This document shows positions 39,689-51,800 of a stretch of 64,000 nucleotides of DNA, in pieces. The DNA lies in assembly GCF_038630985.1 (NCBI RefSeq), contig NZ_CP152049.1, positions 1,259,501 through 1,323,500 on the forward strand, written 5' to 3'. Numbering within the stretch: the stretch's first letter is position 1; every line of letters begins with the position of its first letter. Origin of the DNA: Paenibacillus sp. FSL H8-0548 (GTDB lineage: Bacteria > Bacillota > Bacilli > Paenibacillales > Paenibacillaceae). A program made the translations under genes and the position numbers. The notes under the pieces are model-generated. The model saw only the letters and a program-made list of their open reading frames with translations, ran no database searches and was not told the origin of the DNA.

Positions 39689-39722
39689 GACCGTACACGA
39701 GATAAAGGTGTACGGTTTTTTT
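39689..39722 (+). terminator. Rho-independent terminator after tetR
   Basis: ACCGTACA/TGTACGGT stem followed by seven T. Confidence 0.88.
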
Positions 39723-39826
39723 CTATTGCAATGTAAAGTTATTTGCTGAAGAATTGACTTGGATCTTTAAAAGTTTTCGGAATAACGGTACAATTTGGTA
39801 GTGACTTTCTATAACAAGCTGTACTA

Positions 39827-44198: not shown

Positions 44199-45359
44199 TT
44201 ATTGTGCTTGTGCTTCAGCGATAGCATCCGTTTCAACGGGAGGCAGTGGATTACGTTTGATTTTAACCTCTTGGAAAATGATTTTATTAGAAATGATGTA
44301 ATCAGGTGTTTTTCGGTGGGAATGGGATTCGCGGAAAGCTTCGCTTTTTGTCCAGGCTTGGAAATCATCCTTGGAATTCCAGCGTGTAACGACGGATACC
44401 TCATCATAATCCGCTGTATTTTGCGTCAGCAGCACCTCCAGGCCTAGAAAACCCTCCATGCTGTCGACTTTGCCAATTCGGTCGAAGCGTTCAATTAGCT
44501 TCTCACCGTTACCCTTCGTAATATGGGACAGGTTCGTTACAATAATCATCGTTGCATCCTCCTCGTAATTTTTAGGTATAGGTATAATGACGGGATAATT
44601 TTCATCAAAGCTAACCTTCGCTTCAATTTCGTACACTTGCCTCAAAAAGCGAGAAGTAATAACGGCCTGCGGAGTTCCTGTTGCGATAATTTCACCGTCC
44701 TTCATCGCAATAAGATGATCGCAATAGGCAGCAGCCTGCTGCAGATCATGCAGTACCATAACCATCGTGATGCCATGCTCTTGATTAATTTTGCGCAGCA
44801 TGCCCATAACCTCAAGCTGATGGGAAATATCTAAGAAGGTCGTAGGCTCATCGAGTAAAATGATATCCGTTTTTTGAGCAAGCGCCATCGCAATCCGGGC
44901 TTTTTGCTGCTCACCTCCCGACAAAGTATGGAACATTCGATCGTCATGACGACGGATGCTCATCGTTCTCATCGCCCAATCTATGATCTTCTGATCCTCA
45001 TCAGTTAATCGCTGCTTGAACATCCGTTTATGCGGTGATCGTCCGTAAGCAACCAATTCGCGGACCGTAAGCTCGGGAAGCATTTCCTTAGCCTGCGGCA
45101 GCATCGAAATCGTTCGGGCATAGTCGGCTCTGGAGTAAGCGCCGGTTTCCTTGCCCTGAACGGATATTTTGCCTTTATCTGCATCCAGCAGCTTCGTAAT
45201 GATTTTTAACAGGGTAGACTTGCCTGAGCCATTTGGCCCGATAATCGCTGTCATTTTCCCATCGGGAATAGCAGTTGTAACGTCAAAGAGCTGAAACATA
45301 CCCATTTCTAGCTCAATTTCCTTTAAATCAATCGCTGTATGGCTAGTTGTCATCTCCAA
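44199..45359 (-). CDS. Heme ABC transporter ATPase fused to an IsdG-type heme monooxygenase
   Basis: 386 residues. Residues 1 to about 265 are a FecE/HmuV-type ABC ATPase: Walker [10 protein letters not shown], signature [12 protein letters not shown], Walker [13 protein letters not shown]. The last 116 residues are an IsdG/HmoA-like domain; counted from its own methionine it keeps Asn6, Trp66 and His76, the catalytic triad of IsdG/IsdI enzymes. The fusion links heme import to heme opening and iron release. An internal GAGGAGG eight bases before that methionine (ATG at 44549) could also allow separate translation. It overlaps the permease gene by ten bases. Confidence 0.9.
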
Positions 45360-46348
45360 TTACTCCGTTTCCTCAGTAAAATTAAAAAGAACGGCGCACC
45401 GACGCACGCGAGCAGAATGCCAACTGGAAGCTCAATCGGATCAAACCATGTTCTTGCTATCGTATCCGCGAAAACAACAAGCGCTGCACCGCCTATGATG
45501 GACACTGGGAGAAGGTAGCGGTAATCCTCTCCAATAAGCAGCCGTACAGCATGTGGGACAACAAGCCCGACAAAGCCGATCAAGCCGGCTGCGCTAACCG
45601 CGGCTCCCGCAAGAAGTGAAGAAAGCAGAATGAGCAGCAGGCGCTGCAGCTCTACTTTCTGTCCTAGCAGCTTAGCCGAATCATCTCCCAATAACATTAG
45701 ATTAGCTGGCTTGATAGCAAGTATCGTTAAACCAAGTCCAATAAGTGCATAAGGGGCCATAAAAGAAAGATGATACCAGCTTCGGCCATTTAATCCGCCG
45801 GATAGCCAAGGAAGAACCGCTTGAATCCTGTCGCTGTAAACGACCATGATTCCGTTCATGATGGCGCCAAGCAGAGCATTAATTGCAACGCCGGCGAGTA
45901 CGATTTTTACGGGAGAGGTACCTTTATCCCAGGAGATCAAGTAAATGATGATCGATGTAGCAAATGCACCGATAAATGCAGCCGCTGGCAGCAAATAGCT
46001 GAGCTGAGGCAGCAAAACCATCGTAATAACAGCGGCTAGACCGCCGCCGGCAGATACTCCGATTATGCCGGGATCGGCAAGGGGATTGCGCATAACTCCT
46101 TGCAATATGGCACCGGCGGCTGCAAGACAAGCACCGGTGAGCAAGCCCACCAATACTCGTGGAAGTCTTAAATTCATAATGATGGTGTCATGTGCAGAAT
46201 GGCCCTTTGTCGTGAAAATCGTCCATATTTCACTGAGGGATATCGATACCGAGCCATAGGATAAGCCGTAAAAAACGGTTAACAGAAGCAGGATAGGTGC
46301 AGTGATTAGAGCGATTTTTCTTCTTCTTGCTCGCAGTTGTTTATTCAT
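45350..46348 (-). CDS. FecCD-family heme/iron ABC permease
   Basis: 332 residues with about ten membrane helices. [38 protein letters not shown] and [23 protein letters not shown] are hallmark FecCD/BtuC-type motifs. Partner of the fused ATPase downstream and the lipoprotein upstream (10-bp gap). Heme is inferred as substrate from the IsdG fusion and neighbouring NEAT proteins. Confidence 0.93.
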
Positions 46349-46358
46349 GTCGATCCTC

Positions 46359-47309
46359 TCATTGCTGCAGCGCTTCTAGCTTCTCATGAAGATATTCGAG
46401 CGATTCTATAATCCGAGTTCCTGGATTTGAGCCGAATAAGTCCGCGGGCAGCACTTCAACTTTATTTTGCTGAACGGCCTCTAAGCTGCTCCATGCGGGA
46501 TTCGTCTGCATTTCCTTGAGAAAGCCCTTCTTCACTTCATCCGGATTACCGTGAGTCATAATGAGAATGAGCTGTGGATTTGCCTCTACAATTCGTTCAG
46601 AATTCAACTGCGCATATTGAGGGTAGCTTTGCAGACTGGGATAATCGGAAGCGATATTCGTACCGCCAGCCATCTCCAAAATATTGCCGCTAAGCGAGTT
46701 GGGCAGAGCAGCCATATAAGTACCGGGAGCGCCGTAAACGAGTAATGCCCGCGGCTTAACGCTGTCTGCGGCCGTTTCAAATTGCTTTAACTTTTCTTCT
46801 ATCTCTTGAACGAGCTCAGAAGCACGCTCTTCCTTTTGCAAAAGCTTGCCGAACAGCTCGATTTGCTTCTCAATCTCACTGATTGAATTTGCGCTGGTTA
46901 GGATGACCTTCGTACCGGCCCCTTCAAGTATTGGAACGTCCTTCGTGTTCATCGGGTTATTGCCGAGCACAACATCCGCACGGAGCAATGCGATTTTCTC
47001 CAAATCAACCTCATGGGCAGAGCCGATCTGCTGGACGTCCTCAGCCGCTTTGGTTGCAAGCGGGGTAGTGGAGGCTGGTCTACCGACTAACGTTCCGCCA
47101 AGTGCATAAATAATGTCGGTTTCGCCGTTGCTCAGCGCAACAATGTTTTGCGGAACCTTATCAAATGAGAGCTTGCGATCAGCAAAATCTTTAAATTGAA
47201 TCATGGCCTGCTGCTGGTTTGAACCGTTGGCTGTCTGGCCGGCTTCAATGCCGCAGGCTGTCAAAGAAAGCACAACAGCAGCACAGCAAATAAGCAAAGT
47301 TTTTTTCAT
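46359..47309 (-). CDS. Heme-binding lipoprotein (IsdE-like)
   Basis: 316 residues. The signal peptide ends in the lipobox LTAC, anchoring it outside the membrane. A periplasmic-binding-protein fold of the helical-backbone class follows (IVALSNGETDIIYALGGTLVGRP; MAGGTNIASDYP). ATG at 47309 is chosen: GGAGG lies five bases upstream. First gene of the minus-strand heme operon, preceded by a sigma-A promoter and a Fur box. Confidence 0.92.
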   Translation of the reverse strand: MKKTLLICCAAVVLSLTACGIEAGQTANGSNQQQAMIQFKDFADRKLSFDKVPQNIVALSNGETDIIYALGGTLVGRPASTTPLATKAAEDVQQIGSAHEVDLEKIALLRADVVLGNNPMNTKDVPILEGAGTKVILTSANSISEIEKQIELFGKLLQKEERASELVQEIEEKLKQFETAADSVKPRALLVYGAPGTYMAALPNSLSGNILEMAGGTNIASDYPSLQSYPQYAQLNSERIVEANPQLILIMTHGNPDEVKKGFLKEMQTNPAWSSLEAVQQNKVEVLPADLFGSNPGTRIIESLEYLHEKLEALQQ

Positions 47310-47334
47310 GTGAGCCTCCAAGCCGAGTTAAAGA

Positions 47335-47552: not shown

Positions 47553-47771
47553 GTGCGGGTTTATAAGACAAATAAAGCAGGTATTTGGGTGGGTTCCAGC
47601 ACGCTGAAACAGGTAGTGGAGCCAATGATTACGCCTTATTTGTACGATAAGCATTGGAATAAAGCTTTTTTTTGTCGCTATATTGAGAATGATAATCATT
47701 TCCTGAGGTGGCATATTGTATTTTTTAAAACAATCATAGAGGAGTGTCATGGAGTTGAAAATTCAGTTTAA
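47553..47771 (+). pseudogene. Possible remnant of a lantibiotic-dehydratase C-terminal-like domain
   Basis: A 72-codon frame with GTG start. The stretch VVEPMITPYLYDKHW plus FFCRYIENDNHFLRWHI is reminiscent of the C-terminal 'thiopeptide-type biosynthesis' domain of LanB-like enzymes (pattern WFFIRYxDxxxHLRLR). It is much shorter than that domain and overlaps a Fur box, so it is at best a degenerate fragment. The rest of 47400-47680 holds no visible gene. Confidence 0.25.
47684..47698. promoter_or_regulatory. Fur box of the NEAT/SLH heme operon
   Basis: TGAGAATGATAATCA matches TGATAATNATTATCA with two mismatches. It lies 51 bp before the start of the interrupted NEAT/SLH gene. Confidence 0.7.
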
Positions 47772-47814
47772 AAAAATGCTTGCGGTTTTATTAACGTTGG
47801 TCGTATTTCTTTCT
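47749..47814 (+). pseudogene. 5' fragment of the interrupted NEAT/SLH gene
   Basis: ATG behind AGAGGAG, encoding a signal-peptide start MELKIQFKKMLAVLLTLVV and FLS, 22 codons up to the IS110 core CT. Without the element the frame continues directly to ATT GCA AAT at 49386 (IANVGAVSA), completing the signal peptide with a VSA cleavage site. As it stands, translation runs into the element and stops at about 47874. Confidence 0.85.
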
Positions 47815-47920
47815 ACCCTGAAAATAACTCGTAGTAACTCTAAAAAAGGCAAACCTAAATTAAACCACCAGTAATTAATGTGGTTAAGGATTTAAATAGT
47901 CATAAGCTTGTTCCTTGCTT

Positions 47921-49135
47921 TTAGGACGCTTCTGTAATCGTCACTTGGAATCCTAAGCCTTCAATTCTCTTTATACTTTGTTTAATAATGTACTCTCGTT
48001 GTCGTAAATCAAAATAATCCGCGCCTAGCTCTTTGTAAGACTGACCGTCTTTTAACACATGGTATACAATCGTGAGAATCGTATGAGCAACCGCAATAAC
48101 CGCACGTTGATGGCCTCTGCGCCTTGCGATTCGCCGGAACTGTGCACCTAAATAATTGTCAGACCGAGCCAGGCTATTGGCTGCCTCTGCTAATGAGGAT
48201 CGTAGATACTTGTTCCCTTTCCGTGTCCGCGCAGACTTTCGTTTTCCAGCGCTTTCGTTGTGTCCTGGAACCAAACCAGCCCATGAACATAAATGTCCTG
48301 CGGTAGGAAACCTCGACATATCGGGGCCGACTTCTGCTAAAATCTGTTCAGCCGTTCTCGTTCCGACTCCCGGTATACCATCCAGACGATCCAGTTCTGA
48401 CGAAAAAGGGGCTAGCCGCCTAGAGACCTCCTCATCTAAAGCGAGGATTCGTTCTTCCAAAAAGTCAATATGGGTGAGCATGGCACGCAGCATGAGGCGC
48501 TGATGTGGCCGAATCGTTCCTTGCAAGGCTAACTCTAGCTGGCTTGTTTTCTTTTTGAGTTTGCCTCTAGCCAAGGAAGAGATGACTTTAACATCTTCTT
48601 CGCCTGCTAAGATGGAATCGAGCATATCTCGACTAGACAACCCTTTAATGTCGCTCACCACGGAAGCTAATTTAATGTTTGCGCCCTCTAACACTTTTTG
48701 GATGCGATTGTATTCACGAGCTCGTTCATCAATCATACTGCGTCGGTAACGAACTAATTCTCGTAATTCCCGCTGAGGACGATCTGGGATGTAACTAGCG
48801 GTTAACAAACCATGACGCATTAAGCTAGCGATCCATTCCGAGTCCTTCACATCCGTCTTCCGGCCAGGTACGGCTTTCATATGTTGTGCATTCACAACTA
48901 AGACGGTGATTTCTTCGGATTCCAATAAGTTTACAATGGGTTTCCAATACACGCCGGTACTCTCCATTGCCACGTGAGTACAACGCATTTCCTTGACCCA
49001 ATCAATCAAGGTTAATAATTCAGCGGTATGTGTTTGAAACGTACGAATCTCCTTTCCTTCTGAGGTAATGATGCAGGCTGTAATGTTCTTCTTGTGCACA
49101 TCGAGTCCACAGCAACGTTCGTGAAGTACATCCAT
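47921..49135 (-). CDS. IS110-family transposase (DEDD recombinase)
   Basis: 404 residues. The N-terminal RuvC-like DEDD domain shows GLDVHKKN, AMESTGVYW and KTDVKDSEW; the C-terminal Transposase_20 domain has GIPGVGTRTAEQILAEVG and LCSWAGLVPGHNESAGKRKS with the catalytic serine region. It looks intact, so the element may still be active. IS110 recombinases are guided by an RNA from the element's own non-coding end. Confidence 0.95.
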   Translation of the reverse strand: MDVLHERCCGLDVHKKNITACIITSEGKEIRTFQTHTAELLTLIDWVKEMRCTHVAMESTGVYWKPIVNLLESEEITVLVVNAQHMKAVPGRKTDVKDSEWIASLMRHGLLTASYIPDRPQRELRELVRYRRSMIDERAREYNRIQKVLEGANIKLASVVSDIKGLSSRDMLDSILAGEEDVKVISSLARGKLKKKTSQLELALQGTIRPHQRLMLRAMLTHIDFLEERILALDEEVSRRLAPFSSELDRLDGIPGVGTRTAEQILAEVGPDMSRFPTAGHLCSWAGLVPGHNESAGKRKSARTRKGNKYLRSSLAEAANSLARSDNYLGAQFRRIARRRGHQRAVIAVAHTILTIVYHVLKDGQSYKELGADYFDLRQREYIIKQSIKRIEGLGFQVTITEAS

Positions 49136-49149
49136 GATCTAAAAGATCC

Positions 49150-49340
49150 TTTCTACGACTCTATCTAAGCGAGACTGGCGCAACAACCATTAGAGGGTTA
49201 ATCTACCCTACGTACTTCCCGAAGGAGTGACATTCCGTGCTGCACCGGGTCGTTGGAATCAGTCTATTGCATGGGTTCGCGACACCATAGAAACTCGACC
49301 TTCCTCACCAGTCGTAGTCCTAGTCTTGACAAAAACCTCA
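49150..49340 (-). ncRNA. Predicted IS110 bridge RNA
   Basis: Non-coding end upstream of the recombinase, read on the minus strand. A first loop is closed by ATGG/CCAT and carries on its 3' side UGCAAUAGA (49263-49271), complementary over nine bases to the restored target TCTATTGCA. Its 5' side carries UUUCUAU (49287-49293), equal to the target's other strand. A second loop around CUUCGGGAAG carries AGGGUAG (49203-49209), complementary to the donor end CTACCCT. Ends are approximate. Confidence 0.65.
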
Positions 49341-49385
49341 CAACATTTTCATTCTTTGTGGTGCCGTACAGCGGCATGGGAGACT

Positions 49386-51800
49386 ATTGCAAATGTAGGA
49401 GCAGTGTCAGCAGACACAGCGGTCACGCTAGAGGATTCGATCACAAATGCACAAGCGCTTCACGATGATGCGGATGTCGGAAGGCTGCCAGGTGAATATG
49501 AGGAAAGCTCGAAAACGGCGCTGTTAGCAGCTATTGCTGATGCAACAGCCGTTTCTGAGGATGAGGATGCTGACGCGGATGAGATATTGGATGCAAAGAT
49601 AGCTCTTAATCTTGCGGTTGAGCAATTTGCAGCCTCGGCTGCTCGTTTAGTCTATTTCTCTGCTCTGCATGCTACGAATAACGCTTTCTCCACCATGGAG
49701 AATTACTTTGAGAGGCCGGCTACGGTTATAACGGATAATGGCGTTAACTACGCTATTTTTAAAATTACAAGAAGCGCATCCGTTGGCGCATTCAAGGTGA
49801 CTCAAGATGGCGCACTGGTTGATACAATAATCTTAAGTTCAAATACCGGTGCAAACGAAAGAATTGTGAAATTCAAGTTAGATAGCTTCGATACGCTGAT
49901 TACTGCGACGGTTCAGACATTAGCGACTGGCTATGATATGACTCATGCTATTCGTTTAACATTTAACAATGTGAATAGGGGAGAGCTTTCTGCCGCTATT
50001 ACGGCAGCAACGACTCTACATAAGAATGCTATAGTAGGCTCACTGCTAGGTGAATATTCAGAGCAGTCGAAGGCTGCCTATAAAGCAGCAATCGATGCAG
50101 CAAATCTGATTAATGCAGATACGGGAAGCACACAATTGCAAATTGATAATGGAATAAGTGTACTTCGAGCTGCGACTGCAGTCTTTCTTCCAAACGGAAA
50201 TTATTATATTGATTTTAATGTTTTCAAGAATGGTACAACAGTGATATCGACTATGGAAGGATATCTTAAAACTCCAGCATTATTGAAGATTTCAGGCAAC
50301 TCCAAGAAATTGTACATTACTGAAAAATCTAATTTTGCGATTGACAGCCTGAAATTCAACGGCTTGACTGCAAAAGTAGCAAGTCAAGACGACAGCAGCA
50401 AAACAAGAGTATATTATTTCGAGGTGTCAAACTTGTCCGAGCAGATCGCTGGCTGGGTGCGGGTCTTAGTACCCGCTCAGAACTATGTAGGTGAACATGA
50501 TGTTCAAGTGCAGCTTAATCTGAGCTCGATTGTAGCAACGACCGATAACATTGAAGAGCCAAACGAACCCGATCAGGTTGACGCTGCTGTATTAAATGAG
50601 GAGATAGCCGCTGCTGAAGCTGCATATGCTGATGCTGTTGAAGGCAGTGCGGTTGGCAACTTCAAAGCAGGCTCAAAAGTGATTTTGTCAGATGCAATTG
50701 CTGCTGCTAAAGCTGTAGCTGCTGCTCTTGCCTCACAGCAAGCTATTGATGAAGCAAAGACTATATTAGCGCAAGCATTAGTTGTGTTTAAAGCATCTAA
50801 AGTAGTTGAAAGTGGAGTTACACCGCCAAATACGGGCCTAGCAGATGGGCAATACAGTATTAACGTAACTGTTCTGAAGGATGGTACAAATGAAGAGTCG
50901 GTCATGCAGGGGTATATCGTTCCTACAGCTAAGCTGGTGGTATCCGGAAGCAGTAAACGAATCCATTTGACTTTGACGCAAGATAAAGAAATAACAGGGT
51001 TTAAGATGAATGGCATGAACGTAAGCGTTGAAAGCAGAGATACGTCTAAAAACACAAGAGTTGTTTCCTTTGCGGTGTCGGATTTGTCCAAAGTAATGAA
51101 TGGCTGGGTGAGTATTTTATGGCCTGAATTTAACTATGATCACGATTACGATATTCAAGTTAAATTTAATGAATCCAGTATCACTAAGTTAGGCTCTGAT
51201 ACGGTGTTAATACCGGATGATGTTAAGACAGATGTAGAGGAAGAGGAGCAGCCGGTAGTGACGCCAGTAGCCTTTAAAGATGTGCAGGGACACTGGGCGC
51301 AAGCTTCTATTGACAAAGCGTTATTACTTGGTGTCGTTGCAGGCTACGCTGATGGAAGCTTCCGTCCGAACGGTGAGATCACTCGTTCAGAATTTGCAGT
51401 ACTCATTAGTCGGGCGCTGAAGCTGACAGAAAGCACAACAACGCAAGCATTCAATGATGATGGCACGATTCCTGCATGGGCTCAGGCACATGTGGCAAGT
51501 GCAGTAAGCGCTGGGTTCATTGGCGGATATGAGGATCAAACTTTCCGTGGGAAAAATCAGATTACACGTGCGGAGCTTGCGGTTATTATTGCTCGTGCGG
51601 CGAAGCTGCCAATAAATGAAGAAGCAGCTCCAACCTTTGCGGATGCGAGTGATATTCCGGTATGGGCGCAGAAAGAGGTCGCTGCTGCTGTTGAGGCAGG
51701 ACTCATTGAAGGAAAAGGGAACAATACATTCGATCCAAACGGAAAAGCAACGCGTGCAGAGGCACTAACACTTATTATGAAGCTTCTTGAGGAAAATTAA
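49386..51800 (+). pseudogene. NEAT/SLH heme-binding surface protein, 3' part (disrupted by IS110)
   Basis: The restored protein would be 826 residues. After the signal peptide come alternating FIVAR-like helical repeats and three NEAT domains (about 49645-49975, 50194-50530, 50835-51190), then three SLH domains (51270-51790). NEAT3 has VMQGY and the heme-tyrosine pattern YDHDY (YxxxY); NEAT1 and NEAT2 lack the full pattern. It would be a wall-anchored hemophore like the Bacillus SLH-NEAT proteins. The frame now stays open back to an ATG inside the IS at 49227, but that product would lack a signal peptide, so surface display should be lost. Confidence 0.85.

Follow-up and report, generated by a model that had tools for sequence, protein, structure and literature searches.

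Covariation with target flanks points to an end-swapped bridge RNA in an IS110-family element of Paenibacillus

The window (the whole stretch of 64,000 nucleotides analysed here) carries an IS110-family element whose upstream non-coding end most probably encodes, on the transposase strand, a bridge RNA for RNA-guided insertion, in a layout flipped relative to that of IS621; we put the probability of this reading at about 0.88. It builds on the boundaries of the element, its guides, their covariation in relatives with both flanks and with the far end, and the predicted structure and strand of the RNA, all read from sequence. More broadly, we think it likely that a large IS110 clade with ~400-aa transposases, present in Bacillota and probably in Actinomycetota, uses such an end-swapped bridge RNA, the RNA gene being upstream, like that of IS621, yet adjoining the 'left donor' rather than the 'right donor', and the element integrating the other way round relative to the RNA's target frame.

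The element and its insertion site

The element interrupts a NEAT/SLH gene close to its start codon, and the parts of the locus are the following:

47813..49383, minus strand: IS110-family element, 1571 bp with the CT core (AG on the transposase strand) counted once
49384-49385: second copy of the CT core (junctions from the joined flanks, core placed via relatives)
47921..49135, minus strand: DEDD transposase, 404 aa (open reading frame, Pfam, NCBIfam, alignment to IS621 8wt6)
49136..49383, minus strand: upstream non-coding end (LE), 248 nt, nt 1 being 49383
47749..47814, plus strand: 5' part of the interrupted NEAT/SLH gene, with its start codon, 22 codons
49386..51800, plus strand: 3' part of the interrupted NEAT/SLH gene

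The product of the intact transposase frame matches PF01548 (E 1.6e-39), PF02371 (E 6.7e-23) and NCBIfam NF033542 (299 bits against a cut-off of 140), with the N-terminal DEDD/RuvC and C-terminal Transposase_20 domains of the IS110 family. Upon alignment to IS621 (8wt6), D12, E58, D95, D98 and S295 occupy the catalytic positions of the DEDD and Ser motifs, and we take them to have the corresponding catalytic roles. The non-coding DNA amounts to 248 nt upstream of the transposase gene versus 108 bp downstream (stop to end), the long upstream region being a feature of the IS110 group as opposed to IS1111, in which the non-coding region is downstream. A protein tree with long branches and without any IS1111 or ISEc21 protein was not used for group membership.

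Read from the joined flanks, the junctions are TTT[CT]ACCCT (core 47813-47814) and GAGA[CT]ATTGC (core 49384-49385), and the empty site reconstructed from both is TTTCTATTGCA. Because an A follows the core at both junctions, the window element alone would also allow CTA as the repeat; relatives with a different next base, such as L028 (...GGGAG/CTTAAT), fix the core as AG on the transposase strand and CT on the other. CT or CTA is common to both junctions and no long terminal repeat was seen by eye, so that the element is a short-core insertion without long terminal inverted repeats, as are members of its family. When the 11-13 bp subterminal inverted repeats of the IS1111 type were sought by eye, just the short shared ATGAAAAT/ATTTTC motif was found. 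Its two forms, ATGAAAAT in LE (49345-49352) and ATTTTC near the far end (47813-47825), are inverted copies that are conserved across the clade, even at 42-46% identity, and possibly form a short, asymmetrically placed subterminal inverted repeat.

A genome search found the element as the only copy in the 7.35-Mb genome, and 18 exact TGCAATAGAAA sites elsewhere in it are unoccupied (6 for the backwards pattern), one of them at 39720-39730 in the window. With the flanks joined, one continuous open frame of 826 residues results; its start resembles a signal peptide, and the NEAT and SLH domains are in the part downstream of the element. The element is inserted within the signal-peptide region of a gene for a surface protein with NEAT (iron/haem) and SLH domains. 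A search of plasmids with the interrupted-gene DNA gave no match, and when NEAT/SLH orthologues were sought for an empty site, none of the four stretches compared corresponded at the gene start. A GTG-started frame of 857 aa (49227-51800) begins within LE and continues into the interrupted gene's 3' part, so that a product without signal peptide could be read from the element. The neighbouring genes at 45350-47321 look by eye like a siderophore ABC permease and a binding protein.

Guides in the window element

An earlier note, made from the DNA letters alone, had proposed bridge-RNA guides in the minus-strand RNA of this end, and we found them at the places it claimed (TTTCTAT at 49293-49287, TGCAATAGA at 49271-49263 and AGGGTAG at 49209-49203). 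The four candidate guides are:

49287..49293, minus strand: 5' target guide UUUCUAU, complementary to the core and to the flank outside the far end (47810-47814)
49263..49271, minus strand: 3' target guide UGCAAUAGA, fits the flank next to LE (49384-49391)
49226..49232, minus strand: 5' donor guide UGUCACU, weak LE match (core AG and T), by eye
49203..49209, minus strand: 3' donor guide AGGGUAG, counterpart of CTACCCT at the far end (47813-47819, plus strand)

The proposed nine-base complementarity across the CT core is exact, with UGCAAUAGA pairing 9/9 with TCTATTGCA; UUUCUAU is identical to the other target strand at 7/7 bases, and AGGGUAG pairs 7/7 with the terminal CTACCCT of the element's own end. 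The donor match that had been described as weak is indeed so, amounting in the 5' donor guide to the core and about one base.

By itself, the window element offers modest evidence for a guide-site match. With seven flank bases plus the core compared against the whole LE, the left flank scored 8/9 (P about 0.02 from shuffled queries) and the right flank gave no match beyond shuffles (P about 1.0); in a blind cross-element test, the window's own right flank was equalled or outscored by those of 16 of 17 other elements. What backs the claim that guides in the IS110 end fit the real insertion site is the covariation in relatives.

Covariation of guides and flanks in relatives

We collected the best 80 of 190 loci from a species-genome scan (61-71% protein identity) and two more from a scan of viral contigs, and genus- and family-level searches provided multicopy sets and a group at 42-46% identity. 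The relatives share ancestry and the locus counts overstate independent events.

The left flank was counted in 61 of 83 rows (82 loci and the window), the others being without a readable flank or guide. Agreement between the 3' target guide and the left flank is complete (5/5 non-core bases) in 59 of these 61 loci, and the exceptions, L068 (one mismatch) and L070 (guide shortened), were kept in the count. There are nine guide classes: CCGTTAG (39 loci), CCTTTAG (6), CCTATAG (5), CATTTAG, CAGTTAG and GCGTTAG (2 each), and CCGATAG, AGGTTAG and the window's GCAATAG (1 each). With one row for each of the 14 distinct 9-base guides, the mean match was 4.86/5 versus 3.25 when permuted, and 0 of 20000 permutations reached it. 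The 5' guide was compared with the right flank in 66 loci (L043, L044, L045, L071, with its anchor misplaced, and L094 were skipped by the pattern) and matched at 3.56/4 on average with G-U pairs admitted, the permutations having a mean of 3.01 and a maximum of 3.27 (5000); the right-flank match is thus looser than the left-flank match across relatives. Guides were not assigned in the distant relatives L165-L170 and L099. These results indicated that the putative guides match the flanks across relatives far beyond chance.

We then compared each variable loop column with each variable flank base in both senses, keeping 87 rows, 73 with a left flank and 81 with a right flank. For the 3' guide, ranks 1-4 of 2802 fell on a same-sense diagonal (flank -5 to -2 with nt 114-117; 71 loci), and for the 5' guide ranks 1, 3 and 6 of 3110 fell on a complementary one (+1, +2 and +3 with nt 93, 92 and 91; 78 loci). 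In the scan of the far end, the donor 3' guide accounted for the first and third of 718 tests (RE -3 and -6 with nt 179 and 176; 69 loci). Off-diagonal pairs with high z are also in these lists and, since shared ancestry inflates z, the evidence of the scan lies in the diagonals. The scan for LE produced no donor-guide diagonal, its top rows being LE columns matched with themselves. Most relatives, as read from the left and right flanks of many of L020-L100, are inserted in a recurring hairpin-like repeat, TTGAACTAAnGC..CCCGTTAGTTCAA, often followed by TTCACAATCTTT.

Predicted structure and strand of the RNA

A consensus structure was derived from 28 sequences (26 of 37 non-redundant rows, hand-picked, plus L143 and L147) and placed on the window:

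49173..49313, minus strand: predicted bridge-RNA core between the arms of the closing stem (GACU/AGUC)
49248..49300, minus strand: target loop with its stem GGUCG (49296-49300) / CGACC (49248-49252)
49272..49287, minus strand: hairpin between the target guides
49177..49246, minus strand: donor loop with its stem (49241-49246 / 49177-49182)
49215..49224, minus strand: donor-loop hairpin CUUCGGGAAG
49345..49352, minus strand: ATGAAAAT box, invariant in the 28 aligned relatives except for its last base

The consensus comprises a closing stem, then a target stem whose hairpin is flanked by two guides, and then a donor stem on the same plan. Paired bases fill 98.5% of 1063 cells, a figure that drops to 32-49% when the partners are slid. 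Two-sided changes were found at 8 pairs in 35 cells (4.2 and 8.4 in shuffled alignments), and further pair types did not exceed the shuffles (23 versus 21.3, reached in 87/500). G-U cells outnumber A-C cells 62 to 4, an excess that supports an RNA on the transposase strand; an antisense RNA was set aside on this count and on the guide positions on the transposase strand. Folded as a single sequence, the window RNA was not unusually stable (z +0.68), and neither strand did better than its shuffles. Rfam gave 0 matches in the window at the gathering score, and a search of phages with the non-coding-end DNA gave no match.

Upstream of the closing stem, the LE of 67 of 73 relatives contains a putative promoter made up of an ATGAAA box and a -10-like box with a spacing of 15-19 bases; about 8 of 73 would be expected to have the pair in shuffled sequence, the rows being related. 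The window copy is without a good -10 box in its LE, and its ATGAAAAT box is possibly a -35 element or an end-binding motif.

Order of the guides relative to IS621

The earlier note had taken the two loops to follow the target-loop/donor-loop plan of IS621. This holds for the RNA itself, in which the target loop comes first and the donor loop second, each with a guide on either side of a hairpin and the core 3' in the guides; as in the IS621 type, the predicted two-loop RNA has target and donor guides that covary with target and donor. It does not hold for the mapping onto the element. In the IS621 type the left flank and the far end pair with the 5' guides, the right flank and the near end with the 3' guides; the arrangement is reversed in the window element, where the right (far) flank is read by the 5' guide and the left one, next to the end that bears the RNA, by the 3' guide. 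Since the 3' donor guide reads the far end, both loops would be flipped together, so that the rule joining left target to right donor would be kept and only the cargo inverted.

Our sole sequence control for the opposite order is one real IS621 copy, in which the 5' guide ATCGGGCCT agrees with the left flank ATCAGGCCT at 8/9 and the 3' guide GCGTAG fits the right flank (CT then ACGC), the core being CT on the transposase strand; in the further IS621-like controls L176-L181 the guides were not assignable by eye. The control copy has a partial duplication inside its own LE/bridge-RNA region (L101:1987-2262). Called blind from the best matches, the order was right-first in 15 of 17 clade elements and left-first in IS621, with G252 and L184 as exceptions; the right-flank match of G252 is equalled by 14 of 17 foreign flanks and the left-flank match of L184 by 10 of 17. 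The right-flank match falls inside the 5' guide in 13 of the 15 right-first elements; those of the window and of L183 are chance matches outside the guide, so their order calls carry no weight. The firm evidence for the predicted guide order is the column scan. By eye, we observed the same order in the 42-46% group (G313, G050, G203, G052, G252) and in Streptomyces-type elements and ISArsp3, a set in which the blind test singled out just ISArsp3, on both sides, and L183, on the left. In the 42-46% group the core, placed by eye, reads AA on the transposase strand and TT in the frame of the RNA, which fits the remark in the available text of PMC11208158 that the core's second T hardly varies, the first base being less constant.

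Alternative explanations and proposed mechanism

It seems unlikely to us that the bridge RNA is exactly IS621-like and the flip an artefact of a wrong RNA strand or of misplaced ends. The strand was indeed inferred, the ends were placed by comparison rather than from a sequenced circle junction, and 2 of 17 elements (G252 and L184) look IS621-like in the blind order test; yet the G-U to A-C ratio of 62 to 4, the core at the 3' side of the guides on this strand, as in IS621, the distinct and ordered columns that track the left and right flanks, and the intact site copy alongside L150 all argue against it, and the two exceptions are matched by foreign flanks (14/17 for the right side of G252, 10/17 for the left side of L184). 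A site chosen by the protein and not by the RNA, with the likeness of loop and flank due to chance or shared ancestry, is very unlikely: although the right-hand match is weak in many elements and one target class covers most relatives (39/61), nine guide classes fit their own flanks, 0 of 20000 permutations reached the fit of the 14 distinct guides, the signal sits on diagonals at loop positions, and the solved relatives IS621 and ISCro4 are bridge-RNA or RNA-guided-family enzymes (available text of PMC11208160 and PMC11208158). Targeting by protein only was set aside on the covariation of guides with flanks in relatives.

Extremely unlikely, in our judgement, is a coincidental match in a dead or passively carried copy of a family that is still RNA-guided. 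For the window alone the left P is about 0.02 and the right side is not significant, the copy is single with 18 free sites, and it lacks a good -10 box, all of which would suit a coincidence; against it, the bases that match in the window fall in exactly those columns whose changes follow the flanks across relatives, and the transposase has an unbroken frame that retains DEDD and Ser. The flipped bridge RNA that we prefer has points against it too: the fold z of +0.68, the weak match of the 5' donor guide, the modest evidence of the window alone (left P about 0.02, right-flank P about 1.0), the missing -10-like box of the window copy, the 18 unoccupied TGCAATAGAAA sites and the shared ancestry of the relatives.

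According to the flipped bridge-RNA reading, the upstream end would encode on the transposase strand an RNA with a target loop and a donor loop, two guides around each hairpin. The target loop would pair with both strands of the chromosomal site across the CT core and, by analogy with the IS621 and seekRNA work, the donor loop may pair with the joined ends of an excised circle, and the recombinase may bind the RNA and exchange strands at the core. Relative to the RNA's frame the clade element would be flipped, with the 'left' target half beyond the far end and the 'left' donor being the RNA-bearing end.

Comparison with known systems

With IS621 the window element shares a related DEDD transposase, an RNA upstream on the transposase strand, the target loop before the donor loop, and the core at the 3' end of the guides, CT in the RNA's frame (available text of PMC11208160 and PMC11208158). 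It differs in that the guides map to opposite ends, in the clade core, which is AG on the transposase strand as against CT in IS621, and in a transposase of 404 aa versus 326 aa. The promoter-like boxes of the 67/73 relatives are inside LE, whereas IS621 reportedly uses a junction promoter. In the covariation reported in the available text of PMC11208160 the 5' side corresponds to the bottom strand and the 3' side to the top strand.

The available text of PMC11187229 describes the opposite for IS1111-type elements (ISEc11, ISPa11, ISKpn4), with the top-strand match 5' of the bottom-strand match, and the window element has this same order if the paper's 'top strand' is taken as the transposase strand, an equation confirmed for IS621. 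In the IS1111 type the RNA is downstream and there are 11-13 bp subterminal inverted repeats, whereas the RNA is upstream here. ISEc21, the one IS110 member tested in that paper, resembles the window element in its RNA upstream of the gene and two short target matches but has the guide order reversed relative to the window clade, and its transposase cluster spans 345-385 aa; the subgroup that includes IS110 has transposases of 395-455 aa (same text). ISArsp3 and the Streptomyces IS110 elements (L185, L151, L182-L184) have the upstream non-coding end, 407-414 aa transposases, the core AG, a 3' guide that matches the left flank and, by eye, the same order, and differ in having other guides and distant proteins. 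The putative combination of upstream RNA and IS1111 order recurs in relatives at 42-71% identity, and is probably present in actinobacteria too. In the available text of PMC11187229, PMC11208160, PMC11208158 and PMC12045711 we did not find an RNA encoded upstream whose top-strand match precedes the bottom-strand one; such a case may be drawn in Extended Data Fig. 10c of PMC11208160, which covers ISAar29 and ISPpu10.

Two layouts are known from the available text of PMC11187229 and PMC11208160, the upstream RNA with the bottom-strand guide first (IS621, ISEc21) and the downstream RNA with the top-strand guide first (IS1111). The window clade would add a third, with an upstream RNA and the top-strand guide first, in which the pairing code and the core are constant while the cargo is inverted between the ends. 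If so, guide order would neither mark the IS110/IS1111 split nor be tied to the position of the RNA gene, and the RNA code would be separable from the element layout. The third layout would bear on the origin of the two known groups and on the orientation of programmed insertion, and searches or designs that assume the IS621 order would swap left and right in this clade.

Natural retargeting and multicopy elements

The nearest relatives of the window element (about 70% identity) have CCGTTAG guides and are seated beside CCGTTAG, so the aim would have changed naturally between them and the window copy. Natural retargeting is a known kind of event, reported for ISXne4 and ISMch6, in which target and guide likewise change together and which belong to other subgroups (available text of PMC11187229). 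The clade would be a natural retargeting set from which guide rules can be read, with nine classes in 61 loci and more in G213 and the 42-46% group.

Multicopy elements bear on two expectations of the earlier note, that other copies should sit at matching targets and that identical loops at unrelated targets would speak against the guides. G213 and G313, with four copies each, keep both guide-matched flanks, and their copies are less independent since they lie in dispersed repeats. G213, with guides ATATAAG and TACTTTCTT, is seated four times at ATATAAG/AAAGTA, and in L150 an intact copy of the ATATAAG/AAAGTA site adjoins the element. The four copies of G340 bear out the first expectation on one side only: their guide CCGTT fits the left flanks (TCCCCGTT, TTCTCGTT, TCCCCGTT and TGCCCGTT) at 5/5 in three and 4/5 in one, but the right flanks share little past the first base that follows the core. 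Finally, L043-L045 of Bacillus suaedaesalsae have another 5' guide, TTTGTG, with a core read as TT, and the downstream flank CACAAT of L044 fits this guide as another natural switch.
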